Shown here piece by piece: positions 1,379 through 14,399 of a stretch of DNA of 22,555 nt. The stretch covers positions 1-22,555 of the IMG/VR virus record IMGVR_UViG_3300042542_001587; one strand, 5' to 3'. The position numbers were made by a program, and so were the translations under genes. A model generated the notes under the pieces. That model was not told where the DNA came from, did not search any database, and saw only the letters and a list, made by a program, of their open reading frames with translations. The stretch's first letter is position 1. Each line of letters opens with the position of its first letter. Origin of the DNA: a virus.

Positions 1379-1487
1379 TGGACTCCTAGGACCGGCTGGG
1401 CCGGAAGTGATTTTATTATCGGGCTGAGCAATTTATCGGATCTAGTATTAGATAGACCCCACCCGACTAAAAAGCGCCGCTAGCTGT

Positions 1488-1637
1488 CGGGCTTAGCGCC
1501 CGAAGGAGCCACAGCGAACTGAGGGGTAAGTCAGTACTCGGCCTAGGGGCCTCGTGAGAGGCAACCGTACGGGTCGCAAAGGTCTTCCCCGCTTTGCTCC
1601 CCTACTGTATATAAGGCAGGAAATTTACGGCATTTCC
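1488..1637 (+). other. Cluster of five perfect inverted repeats, possible structured RNA or packaging site
   Basis: Five perfect stems lie in series: CGGGC/GCCCG (1488-1492 with 1498-1502), ACTGA/TCAGT (1518-1522 with 1531-1535), GCCTC-GTGA-GAGGC with a GNRA tetraloop (1549-1562), GCAAAG/CTTTGC (1576-1581 with 1592-1597) and GGAAAT/ATTTCC (1619-1624 with 1632-1637). An 8-bp palindrome, CCGTACGG, is at 1565-1572. The density in 150 nt suggests a folded transcript or a protein-bound DNA site. No known RNA family was recognised. Confidence 0.4.
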
Positions 1638-1818
1638 CGTTTTAATAATGTGACGTTAATCACTTACGGTAAAAGTCCTGTTCAGAGCCTACTTCGGCCT
1701 TTCAATTTAGCAAATATTTTTTGTTGGGGTTTATATATGTATGCGCTGTAAAATTCTGCAACACGGGGTGCCTCTGCGCCTGCAGACTAGACCCCCCTAC
1801 CCCTGCCTTGCCCTGCGC

Positions 1819-1855
1819 GGGGATGATAGCGGGGAGATATGGGGGAAAGTGGGGG
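1819..1855 (+). other. Potential G-quadruplex: four G4-5 runs
   Basis: G-runs of 4, 4, 5 and 5 lie at 1819-1822, 1831-1834, 1841-1845 and 1851-1855, separated by 8, 6 and 5 nt, which fits the usual four-run rule apart from one slightly long loop. Immediately upstream (1792-1813) the same strand carries runs of C (6, 4 and 3), so the strand bias flips around 1815. The two blocks could alternatively pair with each other. The role is unknown; the position suggests origin or regulatory DNA. Confidence 0.45.
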
Positions 1856-1890
1856 CGTTGACTCTATATCGGGCGGGGCGTGACCCTTAA

Positions 1891-2043
1891 CTATATGCCT
1901 ATGATCTAGCAGCTAGCACCCTGCAGCTATGGCCTAGCCTTGCACCCTGCAGCTCTAACCCTATCGCCTAGCTCTAACACGGTAGACATCCCCGGCCTAT
2001 ATGTCTATGATGTTGCCTATCTAATCGTTACCTAATCGTTACC
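1891..2043. repeat. Patchwork of short direct repeats (iteron-like)
   Basis: GCACCCTGCAGCT occurs at 1916-1928 and 1942-1954. CTATATGCCTATGAT at 1891-1905 recurs as CTATATGTCTATGAT at 1997-2011 (14 of 15 identical). AGCTCTAAC occurs at 1951-1959 and 1970-1978. CTAATCGTTAC is tandemly repeated at 2021-2031 and 2032-2042, followed by a third CTAAT. The arrangement resembles an iteron or operator field upstream of a promoter, but units differ and no family was recognised. Confidence 0.55.
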
Positions 2044-2062
2044 TAATAAGCTGCGCTATATG

Positions 2063-2090
2063 TTGCACCCTTGCCCCTATACGGTATAGT
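2063..2090 (+). promoter_or_regulatory. sigma70-type promoter for the 2142 operon, with palindromic -10
   Basis: TTGCAC (2063-2068), a 16-bp spacer and TATAGT (2085-2090) give a good -35/-10 pair, with the expected start near 2097. The -10 lies inside a perfect inverted repeat, CTATAC-G-GTATAG (2077-2089), a plausible repressor site. Fourteen bases, ACGGTATAGTAAGG (2081-2094), recur exactly at 3361-3374. Just downstream GATAG-AAGAG-CTATC (2101-2115) would lie at the 5' end of the mRNA. Confidence 0.6.
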
Positions 2091-2141
2091 AAGGCATATG
2101 GATAGAAGAGCTATCTATAAACTACCGATAAGGATAAGACT

Positions 2142-2522
2142 ATGAAGAGTAAAGAGATCCCTAGTATTAAGGCGCAGCTACGCGGTATCACCGATCAAGA
2201 GCTGCAGCGTGAAGAGCTAGTGAAAGAGTATTTTAACGGTGAAGAGCGCGTCACCGTGTACACAATTCTAAGGCGCGTAAGCTCTAGCGGGATGACCCGC
2301 CATATATCTCTAAAGATCGCGCAGGGTGGAGAGATCTATGACATAACCTACAATGCAGCTCTAGCACTAGGCGAGAAGCTGCACGATGTAAACGGGTTTA
2401 ACACGATAAAGGTTAACGGGTGCGGTATGGATATGGGCTTCCACCTAGTCTATTCCCTCTCTAGTGTGCTCTTTCACGGGCAGGATCGCGCAGGGTATAA
2501 GATCGCGCAGCGGTGGATGTAA
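2142..2522 (+). CDS. Conserved actinophage protein of unknown function (GCGMDMGFHLVY motif)
   Basis: First gene of the plus-strand train, 126 aa. It carries two patches I associate with an unnamed family common in actinophages: SSSGMTRHI (residues ~47-55) and GCGMDMGFHLVYSLS (~93-107). The protein looks soluble with no signal peptide or membrane segment. Biochemical role is unknown. The start is supported by AAGGA about 7 nt upstream. Its stop overlaps the next start (TAATG at 2520-2524), indicating coupled translation. It is driven by the promoter at 2063-2090. Confidence 0.85.
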   Translation: MKSKEIPSIKAQLRGITDQELQREELVKEYFNGEERVTVYTILRRVSSSGMTRHISLKIAQGGEIYDITYNAALALGEKLHDVNGFNTIKVNGCGMDMGFHLVYSLSSVLFHGQDRAGYKIAQRWM

Positions 2523-2671
2523 TGAGACTTAATAGACGCGGGCGTATCGTGCGGGCGTTACTTATCGGGGCGGGCTTAGCTATCGCCCTATGGTTTATCT
2601 CTTCCCGCCTATGGTATACGGGCGAGGGCTATTGTGTAGGCTCTATGGTTAAGTGTATCGGCGGGCTATAG
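2522..2671 (+). CDS. Small single-pass membrane protein (49 aa)
   Basis: The start ATG overlaps the preceding stop (TAATG). After a basic N-terminus (MRLNRRGRIVR) comes one strongly hydrophobic segment, about residues 12-27, then a short C-terminal part with two cysteines. This predicts a small inner-membrane protein with the basic end in the cytoplasm. No family is recognised. The stop TAG sits at the end of a TATAG motif just before the first hairpin element, so it may end a transcription unit. Confidence 0.6.
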   Translation: MRLNRRGRIVRALLIGAGLAIALWFISSRLWYTGEGYCVGSMVKCIGGL

Positions 2672-2673
2672 TG

Positions 2674-2716
2674 TAGTGGCGTACTATCTCGCACCCTTTA
2701 CGGGGTGCGCGGTAGT
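2674..2716 (+). promoter_or_regulatory. CTATC leader hairpin element, copy A
   Basis: ACTATC (2683-2688) can pair with GGTAGT (2711-2716), enclosing the 7-bp stem CGCACCC/GGGTGCG (2690-2696 with 2703-2709). The same ACTA can instead pair with TAGT at 2674-2677 across GGCGT. TAGTGGCGTACTATC is identical to copy B (2674-2688 versus 4077-4091), while the inner stem differs in sequence but keeps pairing. It follows a TATAGT box (2667-2672) and precedes the gene at 2750, so it is probably a 5' leader structure or an operator. Confidence 0.6.
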
Positions 2717-2749
2717 CTGCAACTAGGCAGAATAGAGAGAGGGAAGAAT

Positions 2750-2893
2750 ATGCGAAAGTGTAAGAGCTGCGAAAGTGTAGAGCTAGTCTATAGCGGGGTG
2801 GATGCGTTTATTCTAGGCGTGCCTACGGAGACATATTGCTATCCTTGCGCTAATGAGATCAAGCGCGAGAGTGAGGGGGCGGTAATATGCTAG
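2750..2893 (+). CDS. CxxC/CxxC zinc-ribbon-like mini-protein (47 aa)
   Basis: Two CxxC knuckles (C4/C7 and C30/C33) separated by about 22 residues are typical of a small zinc ribbon. YCYPCANE resembles YCLPCADS in the 36-aa gene at 3245, so the two may be paralogues. An upstream in-frame GTG at 2705 lies inside hairpin copy A and is rejected in favour of ATG 2750, which has GAGAGAGGGAAG upstream. The stop overlaps the next gene's ATG region (2887-2893). Role unknown; nucleic-acid or protein binding is a guess. Confidence 0.65.
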   Translation: MRKCKSCESVELVYSGVDAFILGVPTETYCYPCANEIKRESEGAVIC

Positions 2894-3066
2894 AGCGCTG
2901 CGATAGCTGCGAGAATATGGCACGCGTTACCGTATCGGGGCATATCGTCCCGCGCTATCTATGCGCTAGGCACGCGGCGGCTCTATGCGTGAGCGTAGGG
3001 GACGCGGCGGGCTTAGCTCACTTTACCGCGCTAATGGCGGGGGATAGGCAGGGGGTGAGCGCGTGA
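2887..3066 (+). CDS. Small cysteine-rich protein (59 aa), putative zinc binding
   Basis: It starts inside the end of the preceding gene (ATGCTAG, 2887-2893) and ends in GTGA, overlapping the next start. C5/C8 and C26/H29 form a plausible CxxC/CxxH metal site, and the rest is alanine- and glycine-rich. No family is recognised. It belongs to the tightly packed group 2750-3355, which is co-transcribed behind hairpin copy A. Confidence 0.6.
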   Translation: MLERCDSCENMARVTVSGHIVPRYLCARHAAALCVSVGDAAGLAHFTALMAGDRQGVSA

Positions 3067-3245
3067 GCGAGAGACTAGAGCTACTTATCACGCGAGAGGG
3101 TAACGCTATCCTAGGCAATTTTTACCGCATCGTAGCCTATCGGGGTAGCTCACGCCTAGGAGAGAAGATCTACGCGGGCTATAACAAGCGCGAGAGCGTA
3201 CGCCTAGCGCGTGAGCTTATTAGAGAGAGAGGGCGATTAGACTAG
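3063..3245 (+). CDS. Small basic protein of unknown function (60 aa)
   Basis: GTG start overlapping the previous stop (GTGA, 3063-3066). The product is strongly basic, with 11 arginines and a C-terminus RELIRERGRLD that looks helical. No cysteines, signal peptide or membrane segment. The N-terminal half looks like a short beta-rich unit (LELLITREG..LGNFYRIVAYRG). Its stop TAG overlaps the GTG of the next gene. Function unknown. Confidence 0.6.
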   Translation: MSERLELLITREGNAILGNFYRIVAYRGSSRLGEKIYAGYNKRESVRLARELIRERGRLD

Positions 3246-3355
3246 TGTTAAAAATAGACACGATAGGGCAAGAGTATTGCCTACCCTGCGCGGATAGTTT
3301 AGAGATAGAGGGCGTGATAGTAGAGCGTGAGGGTAATTGCATAGAGTGCGGTTAA
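3245..3355 (+). CDS. CxxC/CxxC mini-protein (36 aa)
   Basis: The GTG start overlaps the preceding TAG (taGTG). C12/C15 and C32/C35 give a minimal two-knuckle zinc ribbon ending right at the C-terminus (NCIECG). YCLPCADS resembles YCYPCANE in the gene at 2750, suggesting duplication within the operon. It is small enough that coding status rests on the overlap pattern and the paired CxxC motifs. Confidence 0.5.
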   Translation: MLKIDTIGQEYCLPCADSLEIEGVIVEREGNCIECG

Positions 3356-3360
3356 GTAGT

Positions 3361-3374
3361 ACGGTATAGTAAGG
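3361..3374 (+). promoter_or_regulatory. Second copy of ACGGTATAGTAAGG, probable -10 region
   Basis: Identical over 14 bases to 2081-2094, which contains the -10 of the promoter for the 2142 gene. Here TATAGT lies at 3365-3370 but no good -35 is found at 16-18 bp, so it may depend on an activator or on a different sigma factor. A second weaker box, TATAGG, is at 3381-3386. It lies in the gap before the sliding clamp gene. Confidence 0.45.
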
Positions 3375-3380
3375 TAAGGC

Positions 3381-3429
3381 TATAGGTTATCTATCGCTCT
3401 CTCTTCACGGTAGGGAGAGAGGGCGGTAG
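3381..3429 (+). promoter_or_regulatory. CTATC leader hairpin element, copy C
   Basis: CTATCG (3391-3396) pairs with CGGTAG (3424-3429), enclosing CTCTCTC/GAGAGAG (3397-3403 with 3415-3421). The alternative partner for CTAT is ATAG at 3382-3385 across a 5-nt loop, as in copies A and B. Stem sequences differ from A and B but pairing is kept. It lies about 40 nt before the start of the sliding clamp gene. Confidence 0.55.
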
Positions 3430-3470
3430 AGGGCAAGTAGCCCTAAGTGAACGTGAAAGAGAGAGAATAT

Positions 3471-4073
3471 ATGAGCACTATGGAAGAGAATAAAGTAGGC
3501 GTTAATTACGTAGAGCTAGAGGGCGATAACCTATTGCAGCTATTAGAGGGCGTAAGTACGCACGCGGGCAAGGATAAGAGCCTACCTACGCTTAATGCGG
3601 TACACGTCGAGAGTGAGGGCGGTTTATTTAAGGCTAAGGCTACCGATAGATATCGCTTGATCGAGGGTAGTCTGCATAGCCTAGACGGGCGACTAGAGCC
3701 TAGCCTTATCTCACTAGAGGATATTAAGCGCACAATTACACTATGCAAGGCGCATAAGGCTAACCGCGTGCAGCTATCGCGTATCGGTGACACGATTACC
3801 GTAAGCTCACTAGGTGATGCGATTACCTTTACCCTATTAGGCGGTACCTATCCACCTACTGAAGAGCTATTAGCTAAGAGTGAGGGTGAGCCTACCGCAA
3901 TAGATAGCGTAGCCTTTAACCCTGCGCTTATGGCAGATTATGCGAAAATAGCGGGCAAGGGTGCAGCTATTAAGGTTTACTTTACGGGCGCGGGTAAGCC
4001 TATGCGTGTAAGAATTACGGGTGACGCGATTATATGGCGTGCCTTGCTTATGCCTATGCGTTACGTAGACTAG
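3471..4073 (+). CDS. DnaN-like sliding clamp, short form (200 aa)
   Basis: Probable processivity clamp that encircles DNA and tethers a polymerase. The beta-clamp signatures are LPTLNAVHVES (~38-48), ATDRYRL (57-63), TYPP (126-129) and, near the C-terminus, KPMRV (176-180) with LMPMR (193-197). At about 200 aa it is little more than half the usual ~370-aa bacterial clamp, so one of the three domains may be missing or reduced and the oligomer may differ. ATG 3471 is chosen over GTG 3447 because GAGAGAGA lies just upstream. It stands alone between two hairpin elements, suggesting its own transcription unit. No DNA polymerase is found in the window. Confidence 0.8.
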   Translation: MSTMEENKVGVNYVELEGDNLLQLLEGVSTHAGKDKSLPTLNAVHVESEGGLFKAKATDRYRLIEGSLHSLDGRLEPSLISLEDIKRTITLCKAHKANRVQLSRIGDTITVSSLGDAITFTLLGGTYPPTEELLAKSEGEPTAIDSVAFNPALMADYAKIAGKGAAIKVYFTGAGKPMRVRITGDAIIWRALLMPMRYVD

Positions 4074-4074
4074 A

Positions 4075-4122
4075 GATAGTGGCGTACTATCGTGCTCTAC
4101 CTATACGGTAGAGTGCGGTAGT
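4075..4122 (+). promoter_or_regulatory. CTATC leader hairpin element, copy B
   Basis: ACTATC (4086-4091) pairs with GGTAGT (4117-4122). The enclosed bases continue the helix through two wobbles into CTCTACC/GGTAGAG (4095-4101 with 4107-4113) and a 5-nt loop, about 16 bp in all. Alternatively GATAGT (4075-4080) and ACTATC form a perfect 6-bp inverted repeat around GGCGT. CTATACGGTAGAG in its apex differs by one base from the promoter palindrome at 2077-2089. Confidence 0.65.
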
Positions 4123-4162
4123 ATCTTACTAAAATATAGTGAGATAGAGAGAGGATATAGCT

Positions 4163-4333
4163 ATGCAATTAGAAGAGATAGATACCTTGCAAGATCTAAA
4201 GGTATGGGTAGAAGAGAATATGCAGGGAGCTAGCGTGCGGGAAGATATGCACGGCACTTTAATTATCCACACTAATTTAATATCCACTATGGGCGGATAC
4301 CTACACGAAAGAGAGGGAGAGGGTGATGAATAA
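4163..4333 (+). CDS. Small acidic protein of unknown function (56 aa)
   Basis: ATG 4163 follows GAGAGAGGATATAG. The product MQLEEIDTLQDLKVWVEENM... is acidic at both ends, with a probable amphipathic first half and a C-terminal HEREGEGDE tail. No motif or family recognised. It is the first gene after hairpin copy B; its 3' end overlaps the next gene, whose ATG is at 4326. Confidence 0.55.
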   Translation: MQLEEIDTLQDLKVWVEENMQGASVREDMHGTLIIHTNLISTMGGYLHEREGEGDE

Positions 4334-4511
4334 GGCTAAGAGTGGCGATACGGTAGTGTTTGATAAACCGATTGAATTCTTAAACGGCAAGGTACTTCAA
4401 GAGCTGCGCTTTATTAAACGCTCACAATTCTTAGATCCTATTACGGGGCAGGGCTATCATATTGTGGCGTGGCGTAACTATCCGCACACTATCAAGGGAG
4501 AGGGAGAGTAA
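4326..4511 (+). CDS. Small protein of unknown function (61 aa)
   Basis: The start is taken at ATG 4326, preceded by GGAGAGGG; GTG 4323 two codons earlier adds only one residue. The product looks like a compact beta-rich domain (SGDTVVFDKPIEFLNG..QELRFIKRSQ..GYHIVAWRNY) without cysteines or membrane segments. The stop TAA overlaps the next ATG (TAATG at 4511). No family recognised. Confidence 0.6.
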   Translation: MNKAKSGDTVVFDKPIEFLNGKVLQELRFIKRSQFLDPITGQGYHIVAWRNYPHTIKGEGE

Positions 4512-4864
4512 TGAGTACTTTATATCTATGCGGTAAGTGTTTAACACGGGACGGTAAAGAGAGAGCGGTATTGGATACCCCCGCTAACAATTATGTAGAG
4601 GTAAGTAATTGCCCTGATTGTAGAGAGGGTTTAGATACCGATACGATAAGCGAGGTAGAGGTGTTAAGCCTATTGCAGTCGCAGGATAGCTACTCTAATC
4701 AAGTAGAGAGGGAGGGCGCGTACGCTGCCACTACCCTAGATCTAATCAAGGGAATTATGGCCTTAGATCCTGAGAATGATGAAGAGTATAACGATCACGC
4801 CCTAGTGGATATGATCGAGACGGCTATTAAGTATCACCGTAATCATCAGGATAGGGAGGACTAG
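4511..4864 (+). CDS. Zinc-ribbon protein with acidic helical C-terminus (117 aa)
   Basis: N-terminal zinc ribbon made by C7/C10 (CGKC) and C34/C37 (CPDC). The remaining ~75 residues are acidic and probably helical (TLDLIKGIMALDPENDEEYNDHA, split here only as a description), ending KYHRNHQDRED. It could bind nucleic acid or act as an adaptor, but no specific function can be assigned. Start by TAATG overlap with the previous gene; preceded by GGAGAGGGAGAG. Confidence 0.7.
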   Translation: MSTLYLCGKCLTRDGKERAVLDTPANNYVEVSNCPDCREGLDTDTISEVEVLSLLQSQDSYSNQVEREGAYAATTLDLIKGIMALDPENDEEYNDHALVDMIETAIKYHRNHQDRED

Positions 4865-4867
4865 CGC

Positions 4868-5029
4868 GTGAACGATTACTATTATGCGGTTGATCCCGCC
4901 TTTGATGATAATTCTGAATGGATCTCTTGTGATACGTGCAAGAGAGAATATGACCGTAAAGAATATAATTCTGATACGTGCGTTGAGTGTGAGAATGAGC
5001 TAACTATCAAAGAGAGAGAGGCTAAGTAA
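4868..5029 (+). CDS. CxxC/CxxC zinc-ribbon mini-protein (53 aa)
   Basis: GTG start 3 nt after the preceding stop. C21/C24 (CDTC) and C38/C41 (CVEC) form a short zinc ribbon between acidic, tyrosine-rich ends. The C-terminal KEREAK is helical and charged. The stop overlaps the next ATG (TAATG at 5027-5031). One of five CxxC small proteins in this train. Function unknown. Confidence 0.6.
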   Translation: MNDYYYAVDPAFDDNSEWISCDTCKREYDRKEYNSDTCVECENELTIKEREAK

Positions 5030-5187
5030 TGAATCTATGGGATGAATGGGAATTTAAGACTGGCGATATAGAGCACGATAAAGATGGCAATGAAGTAGTA
5101 AGAATGGAACTAATCCTTACTATTGCTGCAAGTCGAGGCGATGTAGTCAATGCGGTAACCGATTTTCTAGAGGGAGGGCTAAAGTAA
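5029..5187 (+). CDS. Small acidic protein of unknown function (52 aa)
   Basis: Translation is coupled to its neighbours by TAATG overlaps on both sides (5027-5031 and 5185-5189). The product MNLWDEWEFKTGDIEHDKDG... ends in a probable helix (SRGDVVNAVTDFLEGGLK). No cysteines, signal or membrane segment, and no recognised family. Confidence 0.6.
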   Translation: MNLWDEWEFKTGDIEHDKDGNEVVRMELILTIAASRGDVVNAVTDFLEGGLK

Positions 5188-5354
5188 TGAATAAAGAATA
5201 TCTAATCGCTAAGGCAGACCTATGCAAGGATCTAGCCATAGAGCAGCTCACCAATGGTGAGAATGAAGAGGGCGTTAAGAACCTTAAGCGTATGATACGT
5301 GCGCTAGAGGAGATTAACCTTATCAACTACCTAGAAGAGAGAAGAGGGTTATGA
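5187..5354 (+). CDS. Small helical protein of unknown function (55 aa)
   Basis: Starts in the previous stop (TAATG) and ends in ATGA overlapping the next start (5351-5354). AGGGAGG lies just upstream. The composition (AKADLCKDLAIEQL, NLKRMIRALEEI) predicts two amphipathic helices, possibly a helical hairpin that could dimerise. Function not recognised. Confidence 0.6.
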   Translation: MNKEYLIAKADLCKDLAIEQLTNGENEEGVKNLKRMIRALEEINLINYLEERRGL

Positions 5355-5503
5355 GTAAAGTAACGGGGTTTACTATCTTTAATAAGGTAACGGGGCAGAA
5401 GCTAGCAACGCTACCGCTATCTATCCCTATCGGATCTACAGTAGATGCGTACAAGAGAGAAGGTTACGATATATCTTGGGGTTGGGAGGAGAGCAATGAC
5501 TAG
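5351..5503 (+). CDS. Small protein of unknown function (50 aa)
   Basis: ATG overlaps the preceding TGA (ATGA). The product is short and mixed in character, with a tryptophan-rich C-terminus (ISWGWEESND). Its 3' end overlaps the next gene by 8 nt, and the GGGAGGAG within its last codons serves as that gene's ribosome-binding site. No family recognised. Confidence 0.5.
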   Translation: MSKVTGFTIFNKVTGQKLATLPLSIPIGSTVDAYKREGYDISWGWEESND

Positions 5504-5744
5504 CTTTCACCCCAAAGAATATGATCTCATCAACCTATATGAGGTGACCGATGAGCAAGGCATAGCCCTATGGGGCGGTAATAATGAGGGTGAAGCCATA
5601 ATTTGGTGGCTCAAAGGCAACCAAGCTGGCCGGATTTTGGTTTCAGCCTGGGATAGCAATGAGGAGGATGCCTATATGATTGGTAGACCTATAGATATCA
5701 CCGATATCGTGGCCAAAACCTATGAATATTATGGTTTAGACTGA
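5496..5744 (+). CDS. Conserved-looking phage protein of unknown function (82 aa)
   Basis: ATG 5496 is chosen because GGGAGGAG lies 4-8 nt upstream; the frame stays open to GTG/ATG candidates farther 5' but these fall inside the previous gene. The product is acidic (SFHPKEYDLINLYEVTDEQG..LWGGNNEGEAIIWW..VSAWDSNEEDAYMIGRPIDITDIV) and looks like a small beta-rich fold. The stop overlaps the next ATG (TGATG). Function unknown. Confidence 0.65.
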   Translation: MTSFHPKEYDLINLYEVTDEQGIALWGGNNEGEAIIWWLKGNQAGRILVSAWDSNEEDAYMIGRPIDITDIVAKTYEYYGLD

Positions 5745-5833
5745 TGATCTTTACTATCGGAATTGCCATAGCCTTACTGGTAGGCTATGCACTTATAGTT
5801 ATGGAGGATAAATTTAATGACGGATATCGCTAG
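5744..5833 (+). CDS. Tiny single-pass membrane protein (29 aa)
   Basis: MIFTIGIAIALLVGYALIVMEDK... is almost entirely one hydrophobic helix (residues ~2-20) with an acidic/basic short tail. The start overlaps the previous stop (TGATG, 5742-5746) and the 3' end overlaps the next gene by 17 nt. GGAGG within its codons at about 5802 provides the next gene's SD. A tiny membrane protein of similar size also begins the minus operon at 12969. Confidence 0.5.
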   Translation: MIFTIGIAIALLVGYALIVMEDKFNDGYR

Positions 5834-6116
5834 AAGGATAGAGTCTGCTAAGCGTAGCGCGGTAGTCTATCGAAATTATAGGCGGGCAAGGGAGAGGGCT
5901 ATGACACGCCTATCCAATGCTTACCCTGAAACATACAAGGAACTGCTCGAACAGGAGAAAATTGTAGATGAACAGATGGGTAAGAAATGGCTTGATATTG
6001 ACGGTAATACTGGTCAGTCTATGGATCTTGATGCCAACACACCACTCACGGGTGGAGGAGAAGGCAACCAAGCCAGCTCCGGTCCAAACAAAAGCAACAA
6101 TGGAGGAGAAGCGTGA
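5817..6116 (+). CDS. Phage protein of unknown function with KKWLDIDG motif (up to 99 aa)
   Basis: The N-terminal two thirds look genuine: a highly basic helical part (RRIESAKRSAVVYRNYRRAR) followed by NAYPETYKELLEQEK and KKWLDIDGNTG, a pattern I associate with small actinophage proteins of unknown function. GGAGGATAAATTTA precedes ATG 5817. From 5968 on the same DNA also encodes the membrane segment of the transglycosylase-like gene in another frame. Accordingly the last ~45 residues are low-complexity (Gly/Asn/Ser), as expected for a frame constrained by its partner. Confidence 0.7.
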   Translation: MTDIARRIESAKRSAVVYRNYRRARERAMTRLSNAYPETYKELLEQEKIVDEQMGKKWLDIDGNTGQSMDLDANTPLTGGGEGNQASSGPNKSNNGGEA

Positions 6117-6387
6117 AAACAAGCGAATCGCTAAGCAATATAGTCGCGCTCTCGGATATACGCACAAGCAAACATCGTGCCTTATCACCCTATGGACCCG
6201 TGAAAGCAGGTTTGACCACCTTGCAGACAACCCAAGATCAACAGCTTACGGAATTGCTCAACTCCTTAGAGAGAAAAATCGAAACCCTGAATTACAAATC
6301 CTTCACGGTATACGATACATTGGTCATCGCTATAGAGGCGATGCGTGTAGCGCTCTCAGACACTCTGATCGAAGAGGATGGTACTGA
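5968..6387 (+). CDS. Membrane-anchored lytic transglycosylase-like protein (139 aa)
   Basis: Predicted peptidoglycan-cleaving protein. Residues ~7-23 form an N-terminal signal anchor (LILTVILVSLWILM). A linker follows, then a compact lysozyme-like domain: SCLITLWTRESRFD with probable catalytic Glu79, NPRSTAYGIAQLL (88-100), and GIRYIGHRYRGDACSAL up to the terminal GWY, the ending usual for actinobacterial transglycosylase-like domains. AGGAGA lies ~10 nt before ATG 5968. The gene overlaps the preceding one by 149 nt in another frame, and its stop is joined to the next start (TGATG). Being outside the main lysis group, it may act in cell-wall remodelling, release or entry; this is inference. 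Confidence 0.8.
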   Translation: MNRWVRNGLILTVILVSLWILMPTHHSRVEEKATKPAPVQTKATMEEKRENKRIAKQYSRALGYTHKQTSCLITLWTRESRFDHLADNPRSTAYGIAQLLREKNRNPELQILHGIRYIGHRYRGDACSALRHSDRRGWY

Positions 6388-6548
6388 TGTTTAGGTACTG
6401 GCTTATGTTCGGGATTAAGAGAGGGTGGATAAGCAAGCCCTATTGCTCCACGCACGATGGCAACTTTGAATATATGACTGAAGAAGAACTATATGAATGG
6501 AATGAAGGTGGCGATCCCTGCCACGTAGCAATATCCGTGCTACAATAA
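6387..6548 (+). CDS. Conserved actinophage protein of unknown function (53 aa)
   Basis: ATG overlaps the transglycosylase stop (TGATG, 6385-6389), which supports both genes. The central part GWISKPYCSTHDG..MTEEE followed by EGGDPCHVAI matches a small family I know only as hypothetical actinophage proteins. C20 and C45, together with H23 and H46, could bind a metal. It is the last gene of the plus-strand train, directly before the terminator. Confidence 0.7.
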   Translation: MFRYWLMFGIKRGWISKPYCSTHDGNFEYMTEEELYEWNEGGDPCHVAISVLQ

Positions 6549-6570
6549 TCTTGTTTCCTTCCAGCACAAC

Positions 6571-6608
6571 CTAGCCCTCACCGTTAACCTCTTTCCGGTG
6601 GGGGTTAG
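6571..6608. terminator. Hairpin terminator between convergent operons
   Basis: A 13-bp stem with two G-U pairs is formed by 6571-6583 and 6596-6608 (core CCCTCACCG/CGGTGGGGG), with a 12-nt loop. The stem sits between the stop of the plus train (6548) and the stop of the minus operon (6613). Only a weak T-stretch follows on the plus strand, so it may act as a bidirectional block or an mRNA 3' end protector. Confidence 0.6.
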
Positions 6609-6612
6609 TGCT

Positions 6613-6783
6613 TTATCCACCGTTACTGTAGAACCCTGGACCCTTAAAGGTGACAGCGGGTGATGACCAAGTACGGGACATAGACTGGTGGCAATCAGTA
6701 CACATAGGGTTGATTATCTCAGCGTGGATAGACTGCTCGATCTCCCTGATATTGCCACACTCACACTTGAAAGCATAGATCAT
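6613..6783 (-). CDS. FmdB-like zinc ribbon protein (56 aa)
   Basis: Small putative regulatory zinc ribbon: C7/C9 (KCECG) and C28/C31 (CTDC), followed by the family-typical tail TWSSPAVTFKGPGFYSNGG. The aromatic start MIYAFKC also fits. Length is normal for phage members. ATG 6783 overlaps the preceding stop (ATGA). Last gene of the leftward replication operon, ending next to the terminator. Molecular role not established for phage members. Confidence 0.8.
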   Translation of the reverse strand: MIYAFKCECGNIREIEQSIHAEIINPMCTDCHQSMSRTWSSPAVTFKGPGFYSNGG

Positions 6784-7163
6784 AGCTTTACTGCCTCTTC
6801 TATATCTAAGTAACCTACTAACTTGTAAACTTTATTCTTATTCTCAAACTCGGTAGTCACTGGCATCACTTGTGTATACCATTTAGGTTCTGGCAGATCC
6901 ATAAGATCGAAAGAATAAATACCAAGTGGGGTGGAGTTGATGTAGTACGGGATCAGATCTCGCTCTGCTGCCTGAGTGATGAGCTTGCGATACTTGATCT
7001 CTTCGATAAGCAGGGTGGGATAGTGCGTCTGTCTGCACTTAAGTTCGATGTAGTGTGCAGCCTTCTCGCTGGTGCAGTCATAGGTATCGTATATCCCTGG
7101 ACTCTTGACCAAGTCAGGGTAGAGACTGCCTTTGAGATAGTTAAATAACTCTTGTTCTATCAC
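6780..7163 (-). CDS. PD-(D/E)XK nuclease-like protein (127 aa)
   Basis: D26/D29 followed by IELKCR with E40-x-K42 resembles the core of PD-(D/E)XK endonucleases, and the spacing fits a small single-domain enzyme. I know similar small phage proteins only as hypotheticals, so nuclease activity is inference. GTG 7163 is chosen because it overlaps the upstream stop (GTGA), as is the rule in this operon; an in-frame ATG at 7220 would extend it deep into the sigma-like gene. The C-terminal half (YTQVMPVTTEFENK..) gives no motif. Confidence 0.6.
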   Translation of the reverse strand: MIEQELFNYLKGSLYPDLVKSPGIYDTYDCTSEKAAHYIELKCRQTHYPTLLIEEIKYRKLITQAAERDLIPYYINSTPLGIYSFDLMDLPEPKWYTQVMPVTTEFENKNKVYKLVGYLDIEEAVKL

Positions 7164-12972: not shown

Positions 12973-13527
12973 TTATCCTTTCTCTTGAGTAACTAATTGA
13001 ATCGGAGGACAGGTGTTCACGTCAAGTACCGACGCGATCTTTATTGCCCTTTCTGCTACAACCTTAGACATCAGCAAAGACTTATACGATCCAGGCTTGA
13101 GCGAGTAGAGATAGCCCAAGGCAAATGCCCCACCGCTACCGGCTGAGAAGAGTCCACGTTCACTGGAGTTAAAGGATAGATCTGATCCGATAGAAAATAA
13201 CATCCCATCAAAGGCTAGAAGATAAGCGAAGTTGGCTTCCTTATCGGATGGCTCGTATCCATTATCCTTAAAGGCAGCGTAGATACTTGGCAGTATCTTC
13301 TTGCCCATCCATTCGACAGGATCGTAATTCTTATACGTTGGTGGTTTCCAATTAAAGGCAAGGATATCTCCAGGTCGTGAGTCGCCCGTAATACCTAACA
13401 GGTAGCTCCCAATGTGAACAATCTTCGGAGTCTGCGTGGATATGATGCGTTGATCGTTATCGGTGATCTGCGAATCAGCAGCCATCACTACGAAGTCAGG
13501 TCCTTGGATACCTACCAGAGTTGTCAT
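12973..13527 (-). CDS. HslV/proteasome-beta-like Ntn-hydrolase peptidase (184 aa)
   Basis: Predicted threonine peptidase. Removing Met would expose T2 as the nucleophile (MTTLVGIQG). D18 (MAADSQIT), K35 (TPKIV) and the SAGSGGAFALGYL stretch at 128-140 correspond to catalytic D17, K33 and the S129/GSGG region of HslV and proteasome beta-subunits; the lysine is one residue displaced. TGDSRPGD at ~47-54 and ERAIKIASVLD near the C-terminus also fit. No HslU-like unfoldase or proteasome alpha-subunit is visible. It is first in the leftward operon, with a TATGAT box 6 nt before ATG and no SD, suggesting a leaderless mRNA. Substrate unknown. Confidence 0.75.
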   Translation of the reverse strand: MTTLVGIQGPDFVVMAADSQITDNDQRIISTQTPKIVHIGSYLLGITGDSRPGDILAFNWKPPTYKNYDPVEWMGKKILPSIYAAFKDNGYEPSDKEANFAYLLAFDGMLFSIGSDLSFNSSERGLFSAGSGGAFALGYLYSLKPGSYKSLLMSKVVAERAIKIASVLDVNTCPPIQLVTQEKG

Positions 13528-14245: not shown

Positions 14246-14282
14246 CACAGCGGGGAAGCATAGTACCCGCGAGTGCTGGATG

Positions 14283-14320
14283 AAACCTCTACAGTCTTCG
14301 CGGCCTGTAGGGGTTTTGTT
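14283..14320 (+). terminator. Rho-independent terminator after the HNH gene
   Basis: A 12-bp stem AAACCTCTACAG/CTGTAGGGGTTT (14283-14294 with 14305-14316, one G-U) and a T-rich tail (TTTTGTTCTTTT) follow the HNH stop by ~37 nt. It ends the 13651-14245 unit and abuts the oppositely directed terminator at 14333-14374. Confidence 0.85.
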
Positions 14321-14332
14321 CTTTTCAGGCAC

Positions 14333-14374
14333 AAAAAAAGAACCCCCCACTCAGGATTTCTCCTGAGCAGGGGG
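14333..14374 (-). terminator. Rho-independent terminator of the structural/lysis operon
   Basis: Read leftward: CCCCC, CTCAGGA, a GAAA tetraloop, TCCTGAG and GGGGG(G), with small internal mismatches, then TTCTTTTTTT (A-tract at 14333-14339 on the plus strand). It is a strong terminator just after the last lysis gene (14400) and faces the HNH unit's terminator. Confidence 0.9.
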
Positions 14375-14399
14375 TATTTGCCTCGCGCTTATGGGCTAA

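Follow-up and report, generated by a model that had tools for sequence, protein, structure and literature searches.

What are the structured stretches that separate genes in the plus-strand operon of this phage, and what might they do there? The window analyzed here is a whole IMG/VR virus record of 22,555 nt. An earlier note on it had described three gaps with a shared hairpin plan and had proposed an RNA switch, an attenuator, mRNA 5' protection, or paired operators. To answer the question, we describe the phage and its operon, define the elements and the selection acting on them, and weigh the functions that they could serve.

The terminase of this phage has its nearest relatives in Planktophila phages (47%) and Streptomyces phages (41%), and the genes of the window include the actinophage marker WhiB and a sigma-70 region-4 protein. 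The records OX376640 and OX376641 are phage isolates from 'Ca. Planktophila' strain LanE-43 (PMC10202952). Based on the terminase, WhiB, and these isolates, we infer that the host group is the actinobacteria. No near-identical phage record was found for the window, and comparison of its clamp protein with named phages gave no match. Elsewhere in the window, the minus strand at 12973-13527 encodes a match to the N terminus of a proteasome subunit (Pfam PF00227, E 4.9e-7), which is unusual in a phage, and two strong hairpins facing each other at 14278-14375 are probably a bidirectional terminator.

The operon consists of small genes on the plus strand, from about 2142 to 6548, and contains a sliding-clamp-like gene whose product has a weak Pfam match to the central domain of DNA polymerase III beta (0.00014) and matches the PHROG DNA polymerase processivity factor (3.8e-13). 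It is preceded at 1400-2060 by about 600 nt of apparently non-coding DNA with many short repeats (CTGCAGCT, TACCTAATCGTT), and a promoter-like TATAGT motif (ACGGTATAGTAMGGCA) stands before the first operon gene and before the second element. At the operon end, a hairpin (CTAGCCCTCACC..GGTGGGGGTTAG) with a short T tail occupies 6571-6608 on the plus strand; it is kept in most relatives and looks like a terminator that closes the operon. Apart from the three gaps, the plus-strand operon junctions in the window overlap or are separated by a few nucleotides at most, counting a 30-aa open reading frame at about 5743. The gene ahead of the first gap encodes a conserved membrane peptide of about 47 aa with a GEGYCVGSM-like C-terminal motif, and it precedes the first element in most of the loci inspected. 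The relevant features are as follows.

2063-2090, plus strand: promoter-like TTGCAC-16-TATAGT of the operon (motif only)
2101-2115, plus strand: leader hairpin GATAG-AAGAG-CTATC, beside this promoter-like sequence and outside the element family
2522-2671, plus strand: small membrane-peptide gene upstream of the first element; a homologue stands before the element also where no clamp is detectable
3365-3370 (within 3361-3370), plus strand: promoter-like TATAGT, conserved near-upstream of many elements of the second type (motif only)
3471-4073, plus strand: sliding-clamp-like gene (DNA polymerase III beta, central domain), with elements at both sides

Each of the three elements, designated E1, E2, and E3, has a stop codon before it and a GAGAGAGG-like Shine-Dalgarno (SD) sequence after it, and is about 60-80 nt long. 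The common plan begins with a 5' strand at the upstream stop codon. After a further 7-8 nt come a long hairpin (H1) and, directly against it, a second hairpin (H2), and then the SD and the start codon. The loop of H2 is complementary to the 5' strand, and the two form a pseudoknot (PK). With the second hairpin included, the elements reach beyond the gaps first described and end at 2731, 3443, and 4145. Their parts are located as follows.

2674-2677, plus strand: E1 PK 5' strand TAGT (columns 6-9 of alignment A2; only 4 bp in E1)
2684-2715, plus strand: E1 H1 (CTATC...GGTAG), from folding, scan, and covariation; 65.9 bits with covariance model R1
2716-2731, plus strand: E1 H2 (TCTGC-AACTAG-GCAGA), with the loop ACTA at 2722-2725 as the PK 3' strand
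3378-3383, plus strand: E2 upstream strand GGCTAT, matching GTAGCC in H2 with one G-U pair; compensatory change at the central pair (UA:20/GC:6)
3391-3429, plus strand: E2 H1; 99.7% of cells paired, two-sided change in 10/14 pairs
3431-3443, plus strand: E2 H2 (GGGC-AAGTA-GCCC)
4077-4080, plus strand: E3 PK 5' strand TAGT
4085-4123, plus strand: E3 H1; 99.5% of cells paired, pair 15-53 being C-G in 33, G-C in 13, and U-A in 3
4124-4145, plus strand: E3 H2, with ACTA at 4128-4131 able to pair with TAGT at 4077-4080 (PK) or with TAGT at 4137-4140

The upstream stop codon of E1 is a TAG at 2669-2671, 2 nt before the PK strand. At E3, the stop codon of the clamp gene is a TAG at 4071-4073, and a second in-frame TAG follows at 4077-4079. 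The upstream strand of E2 is arranged differently: nucleotides 3437-3442 are also complementary to 3378-3383, which gives six pairs that compete with the H2 stem and partly exclude it.

Folding of 71-81 nt around each gap gave -33.8, -34.4, and -34.7 kcal/mol, with z-scores of -3.7, -6.6, and -4.9, and none of 200 shuffles was as good. A zipper scan across the entire plus strand returned only six hairpins of this strength, three of which are these gaps, as compared to zero to three in shuffled sequence. These results confirm the original observation of hairpins in all three gaps, with inner stems that vary in their letters and are nevertheless paired.

To assess conservation, copies from relatives were aligned separately as three sub-types, with about 50 (A), 49 (B), and 26 (C) copies. 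Type A is E1-like, is also found at the clamp flanks, and consists of the PK strand, 7-8 nt, H1, and H2 with CTGC, CCGG, or CCCG stems. In its 51 copies (50 distinct), standard pairs occupy 93.7% of cells across 23 pairs, and 20 of the pairs have changed on both sides, which none of 500 shuffles reached; slid controls gave 38-46%. Type B, to which E3 belongs and which follows the clamp gene, is 98.5% paired across its 26 pairs; at H1 pair 15-53, C-G, G-C, and U-A replace one another. Type C, represented by E2, is 97.1% paired over 20 pairs and includes the change from GGCUAU:AUAGCC to GGCGAU:AUCGCC. In a phylogeny-aware test of all pairs by tree-simulated substitution, seven H1 pairs and two H2 pairs had E<0.05, whereas the PK pairs lay above this threshold. 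The latter is probably a consequence of most PK changes falling together with changes of sub-type, and for this reason a separate test of the stop triplet was carried out, as described below.

The covariation in three sub-types and the phylogeny-aware result for H1 and H2 strongly support the proposed selection for RNA structure. G-U cells number 105, 184, and 76 in the three sub-types, as compared to 11, 2, and 5 A-C cells, an excess of about 10 to 90-fold. As G-U lies far above A-C, it is the plus-strand RNA that is under selection and not the DNA, which contradicts the suggestion of paired DNA operators. In addition, an unpaired G and A before H1 are conserved. We are highly confident that the elements are real, selected structures at the RNA level, pseudoknot included. 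Because evolution kept the fold while rewriting most of the letters, the element almost certainly has a job.

A distinctive feature of the family is the relationship of the pseudoknot to the stop codon. Examples of PK strand and H2 loop include CTAGGTA:TACCTAG, CTAAGCG:TGCTTAG, TAGACG:CGTCTA, TTGAT:ATCAA, and GTTAGTG:TACTAAC, among others. Among 112 non-redundant copies, the core triplet of the PK strand is UAG in 95, UAA in 10, UGA in 5, and UGG in 2. The loop triplets CUA, UUA, and UCA change with UAG, UAA, and UGA, and 110 of the 112 copies pair; permutation gave a mean of 94.4 and a maximum of 100 in 10,000 trials. On the element tree, there are about eight apparently independent joint changes of stop codon and loop. 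An earlier, unfiltered permutation of PK complementarity with the sub-types mixed gave a smaller but clear excess (9.35 vs 7.69, maximum 8.31). The PK triplet is the upstream reading frame's own stop codon in 58/112 copies, and the stop codon lies -12 to +4 nt from the triplet in 109/112. The distance from stop codon to H1 is 4-17 nt in 107/110 copies and 7-8 nt in 58. The next start codon mostly follows 18-30 nt past the element, and the SD, which is outside all conserved pairings, is free in every copy seen. The pseudoknot of E1 and E3 consists only of UAGU:ACUA, 4 bp worth about -0.5 kcal/mol, and closure of so weak a pairing may therefore need tertiary contacts or a protein.

The pairing of CTATC with the upstream TAGT or GATAGT, which had been put forward as one arm of a switch, did not hold up as a conserved alternative. 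It exhibits no two-sided change and is broken in 13/49 type B relatives, and the 13 breaks are exactly where H1 compensates from C-G to G-C. It is also weak, at -4.2 and -0.2 kcal/mol as compared to -24.2 and -19.6 kcal/mol for H1. As the upstream pairing is not conserved, a switch in which CTATC chooses between two partners is unsupported. The conserved partner of the upstream TAGT is ACTA in H2. Mutually exclusive pairings are conserved in other places: in the E3 type, H2 ACTA can pair with the upstream TAGT or with the TAGT 3' of ACTA, and in the E2 type, H2 GCC can join either its partner in the hairpin or the upstream GGCTAT. The sequence at 2101-2115, taken earlier for a partial version, is a plain 5'-leader hairpin without H1, H2, or PK, and unrelated hairpins replace it in relatives. 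An attenuator is likewise contradicted, since the region has no U-tracted terminator and positions 1400-7000 contain no terminator-like site (GC hairpin plus U run).

With the clamp protein as query, 34 and then 80 loci were collected from IMG/VR. The element flanks the clamp gene upstream in 77/81 and downstream in 80/80 loci, and its sequence is almost free. Of the four loci that depart from this upstream, one does have the element, although its H1 is imperfect, and the other three seem to have an extra intervening gene. A descriptor search at a score of at least 40 returned 162 matches on the plus strand; the other strand gave 26 and shuffled sequence 2. With covariance model R1, 100 loci yielded 136 copies at E<=1e-5, and further copies were present in pattern-derived loci. 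Overall, the family comprises more than 130 further copies on the early-operon strand, spread over about 100 IMG/VR contigs that belong to a single group of freshwater actinophages. In ten long records (30-42 kb), the confident matches are confined to the early operon. In about 35 loci with the element, no clamp is detectable; the ones inspected have a similar type of operon, with the element most often after the homologous membrane-peptide gene. In 14 further operons, hairpins occupy 32 of the 59 gaps of at least 45 nt and none of the 126 tighter junctions; the figure of 27 larger gaps that lack one is a maximum because the gap count overlooked short reading frames in some loci. The element is absent from isolate F5 (L105). 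A search of GTDB genomes with the clamp profile returned nothing, and a gapped pattern gave five matches there in unrelated taxa, a number not above a rough estimate of chance. None of 4227 Rfam 15 families matched the window at the gathering threshold, and in four relatives at E<=5 only one tRNA and two chance-level matches were obtained. No description of such an element was found in published papers.

Any mechanism must cover the position between the stop codon and a free SD, the stop codon in or beside the PK strand, the conservation of structure without sequence, the copies on either side of the clamp gene, the lack of internal terminators, and the terminator-like hairpin downstream. Our tentative working hypothesis, in which we have less than even confidence, is that the elements are ribosome-sensitive intercistronic barriers that separate and protect translation units. 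Ribosomes finishing the upstream gene would cover the 5' strand while H1 and H2 stay folded at the ribosome mouth, and upon ribosome departure the pseudoknot would close on the stop codon. The closed fold would stand in the way of exoribonucleases, the likeliest being enzymes of the RNase J type that arrive 5'-to-3' through the upstream gene, and would shield the upstream unit at its 3' end. Each unit, and in particular the clamp gene with its two flanking elements, would then decay and be expressed independently. Features that may be counted for this hypothesis are the structure itself, the pairing of the PK triplet, the position of the stop codon, the bracketing of the clamp gene, the occurrence of hairpins only at larger gaps, the free SD, and the plain 5' hairpin that the first leader of the operon has in an equivalent place relative to its gene. 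There is a precedent in a viral RNA whose pseudoknotted fold blocks bacterial RNase J1 (PMC5760640), and Streptomyces possesses RNases J, E, and III (PMC10126417). Points that count against the hypothesis are the weak 4-bp pseudoknot of E1 and E3, the PK pairs that lay above E<0.05 in the phylogeny-aware test, and a topology unlike that of the solved exoribonuclease-resistant RNAs (xrRNAs), the pairing strand being upstream of the hairpin. The elements are also compatible with the mRNA 5' protection named at the outset.

It is possible, if somewhat improbable, that the element works as a stop-codon-gated switch in which the H2 loop reads the upstream stop codon. A terminating ribosome would open the pseudoknot and its departure would close it, deciding the decay or translation of the next unit, and the operon would use the device repeatedly as a modular boundary whose loop evolves along with the stop codon. 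Translational control, the next candidate after the barrier, is rather doubtful. The element would couple or uncouple downstream translation to upstream termination, with a ribosome at the stop codon opening the pseudoknot and its absence closing it and altering access to the downstream SD. The stop codon within the PK strand, the fixed spacing from stop codon to H1, the start codon lying mostly 18-30 nt past the end of the element, and the exclusive pairings of the E3 and E2 types are in agreement with such control; however, the SD is outside every conserved pairing, and no conserved anti-SD pairing was seen. Readthrough of the stop codon, stimulated by structure 7-8 nt downstream, is scarcely credible. 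E1 is open in frame, and viral readthrough pseudoknots have a similar spacing from stop codon to structure, but UAG, UAA, and UGA are all in use here. The frame is open through the element in only 10/110 copies, with a median extension of 13 codons, which mostly refutes this candidate.

Three further candidates, namely processing by RNase III, operators for a protein, and antitermination of the put type, have weaker support than the barrier or translational gating. Cleavage of H1/H2 by host RNase III, by analogy to the sites between T7 genes, could separate messages and leave hairpin ends, and a long, sequence-free double helix is indeed conserved between early genes; Streptomyces has the enzyme (PMC10126417). 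We consider it unlikely, as H1 is mostly 13-18 bp, which is short for RNase III, and the stop-codon pseudoknot would be superfluous. At least as unlikely is an operator RNA, in which a structure-specific phage or host protein reads several copies as a feedback regulon: the several copies per operon, the conserved unpaired G and A before H1, and the conservation of structure over sequence would suit it, but no candidate binder was recognized, and the nearby small proteins have no family match. Antitermination by an RNA acting on RNA polymerase, by analogy to HK022 put, is very unlikely. The size and the two abutting stem-loops resemble put (PMC9378689); however, put action lasts over 10 kb, a terminator-like strong hairpin downstream closes the operon in most relatives, there are several copies per operon, and no put-like conserved unpaired sequence is present.

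Regardless of mechanism, the elements form a widespread and strongly selected RNA family in phages of bacteria that are probably dominant in freshwater. They suggest that what divides compact phage operons into units is RNA and not promoters and terminators, and their natural compensatory variants are available for studying the terminating ribosome, RNA fold, and mRNA decay together.

The family, which has no Rfam match, is a new structured element of intercistronic mRNA, unusual for its stop-codon pseudoknot. To our knowledge, there is no other family in which the 5' strand of a pseudoknot usually contains or abuts a stop codon while the loop changes with UAG, UAA, and UGA. The intercistronic RNase III sites of T7 are also repeated hairpins between early genes of a polycistronic phage mRNA; they differ from the elements in size and have no pseudoknot and no overlap with a stop codon. 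Stabilizers of the REP/BIME type likewise place a hairpin straight after a stop codon inside operons, but the REP sequence is conserved and dispersed genome-wide, whereas here it is the structure that is conserved, in one operon per whole record of about 40 kb. Like the elements, HK022 put is a cis-acting RNA of a phage early operon, about 70 nt long, with two abutting stem-loops (PMC9378689). There is no sequence relationship between them: put is sequence-conserved, with bulges and a triplex, binds the beta' zinc-binding domain of RNA polymerase to suppress termination, and occurs once per early promoter near the transcript start, whereas the elements are sequence-free, have a stop-codon pseudoknot, and occur in 2-5 copies at internal borders. 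With the xrRNAs of flaviviruses and plant viruses, one of which stops bacterial RNase J1, the elements share a compact fold with a loop pseudoknot and a place in a viral transcript; the pseudoknot is functionally important in the xrRNAs and conserved by covariation in the elements. Unlike xrRNAs, they have no three-way junction and no ring around the 5' end, and their pairing strand is upstream of the hairpin rather than downstream, which differs from the solved xrRNA topology. Short of the full definition of either, the elements resemble put in build and xrRNAs in spirit.
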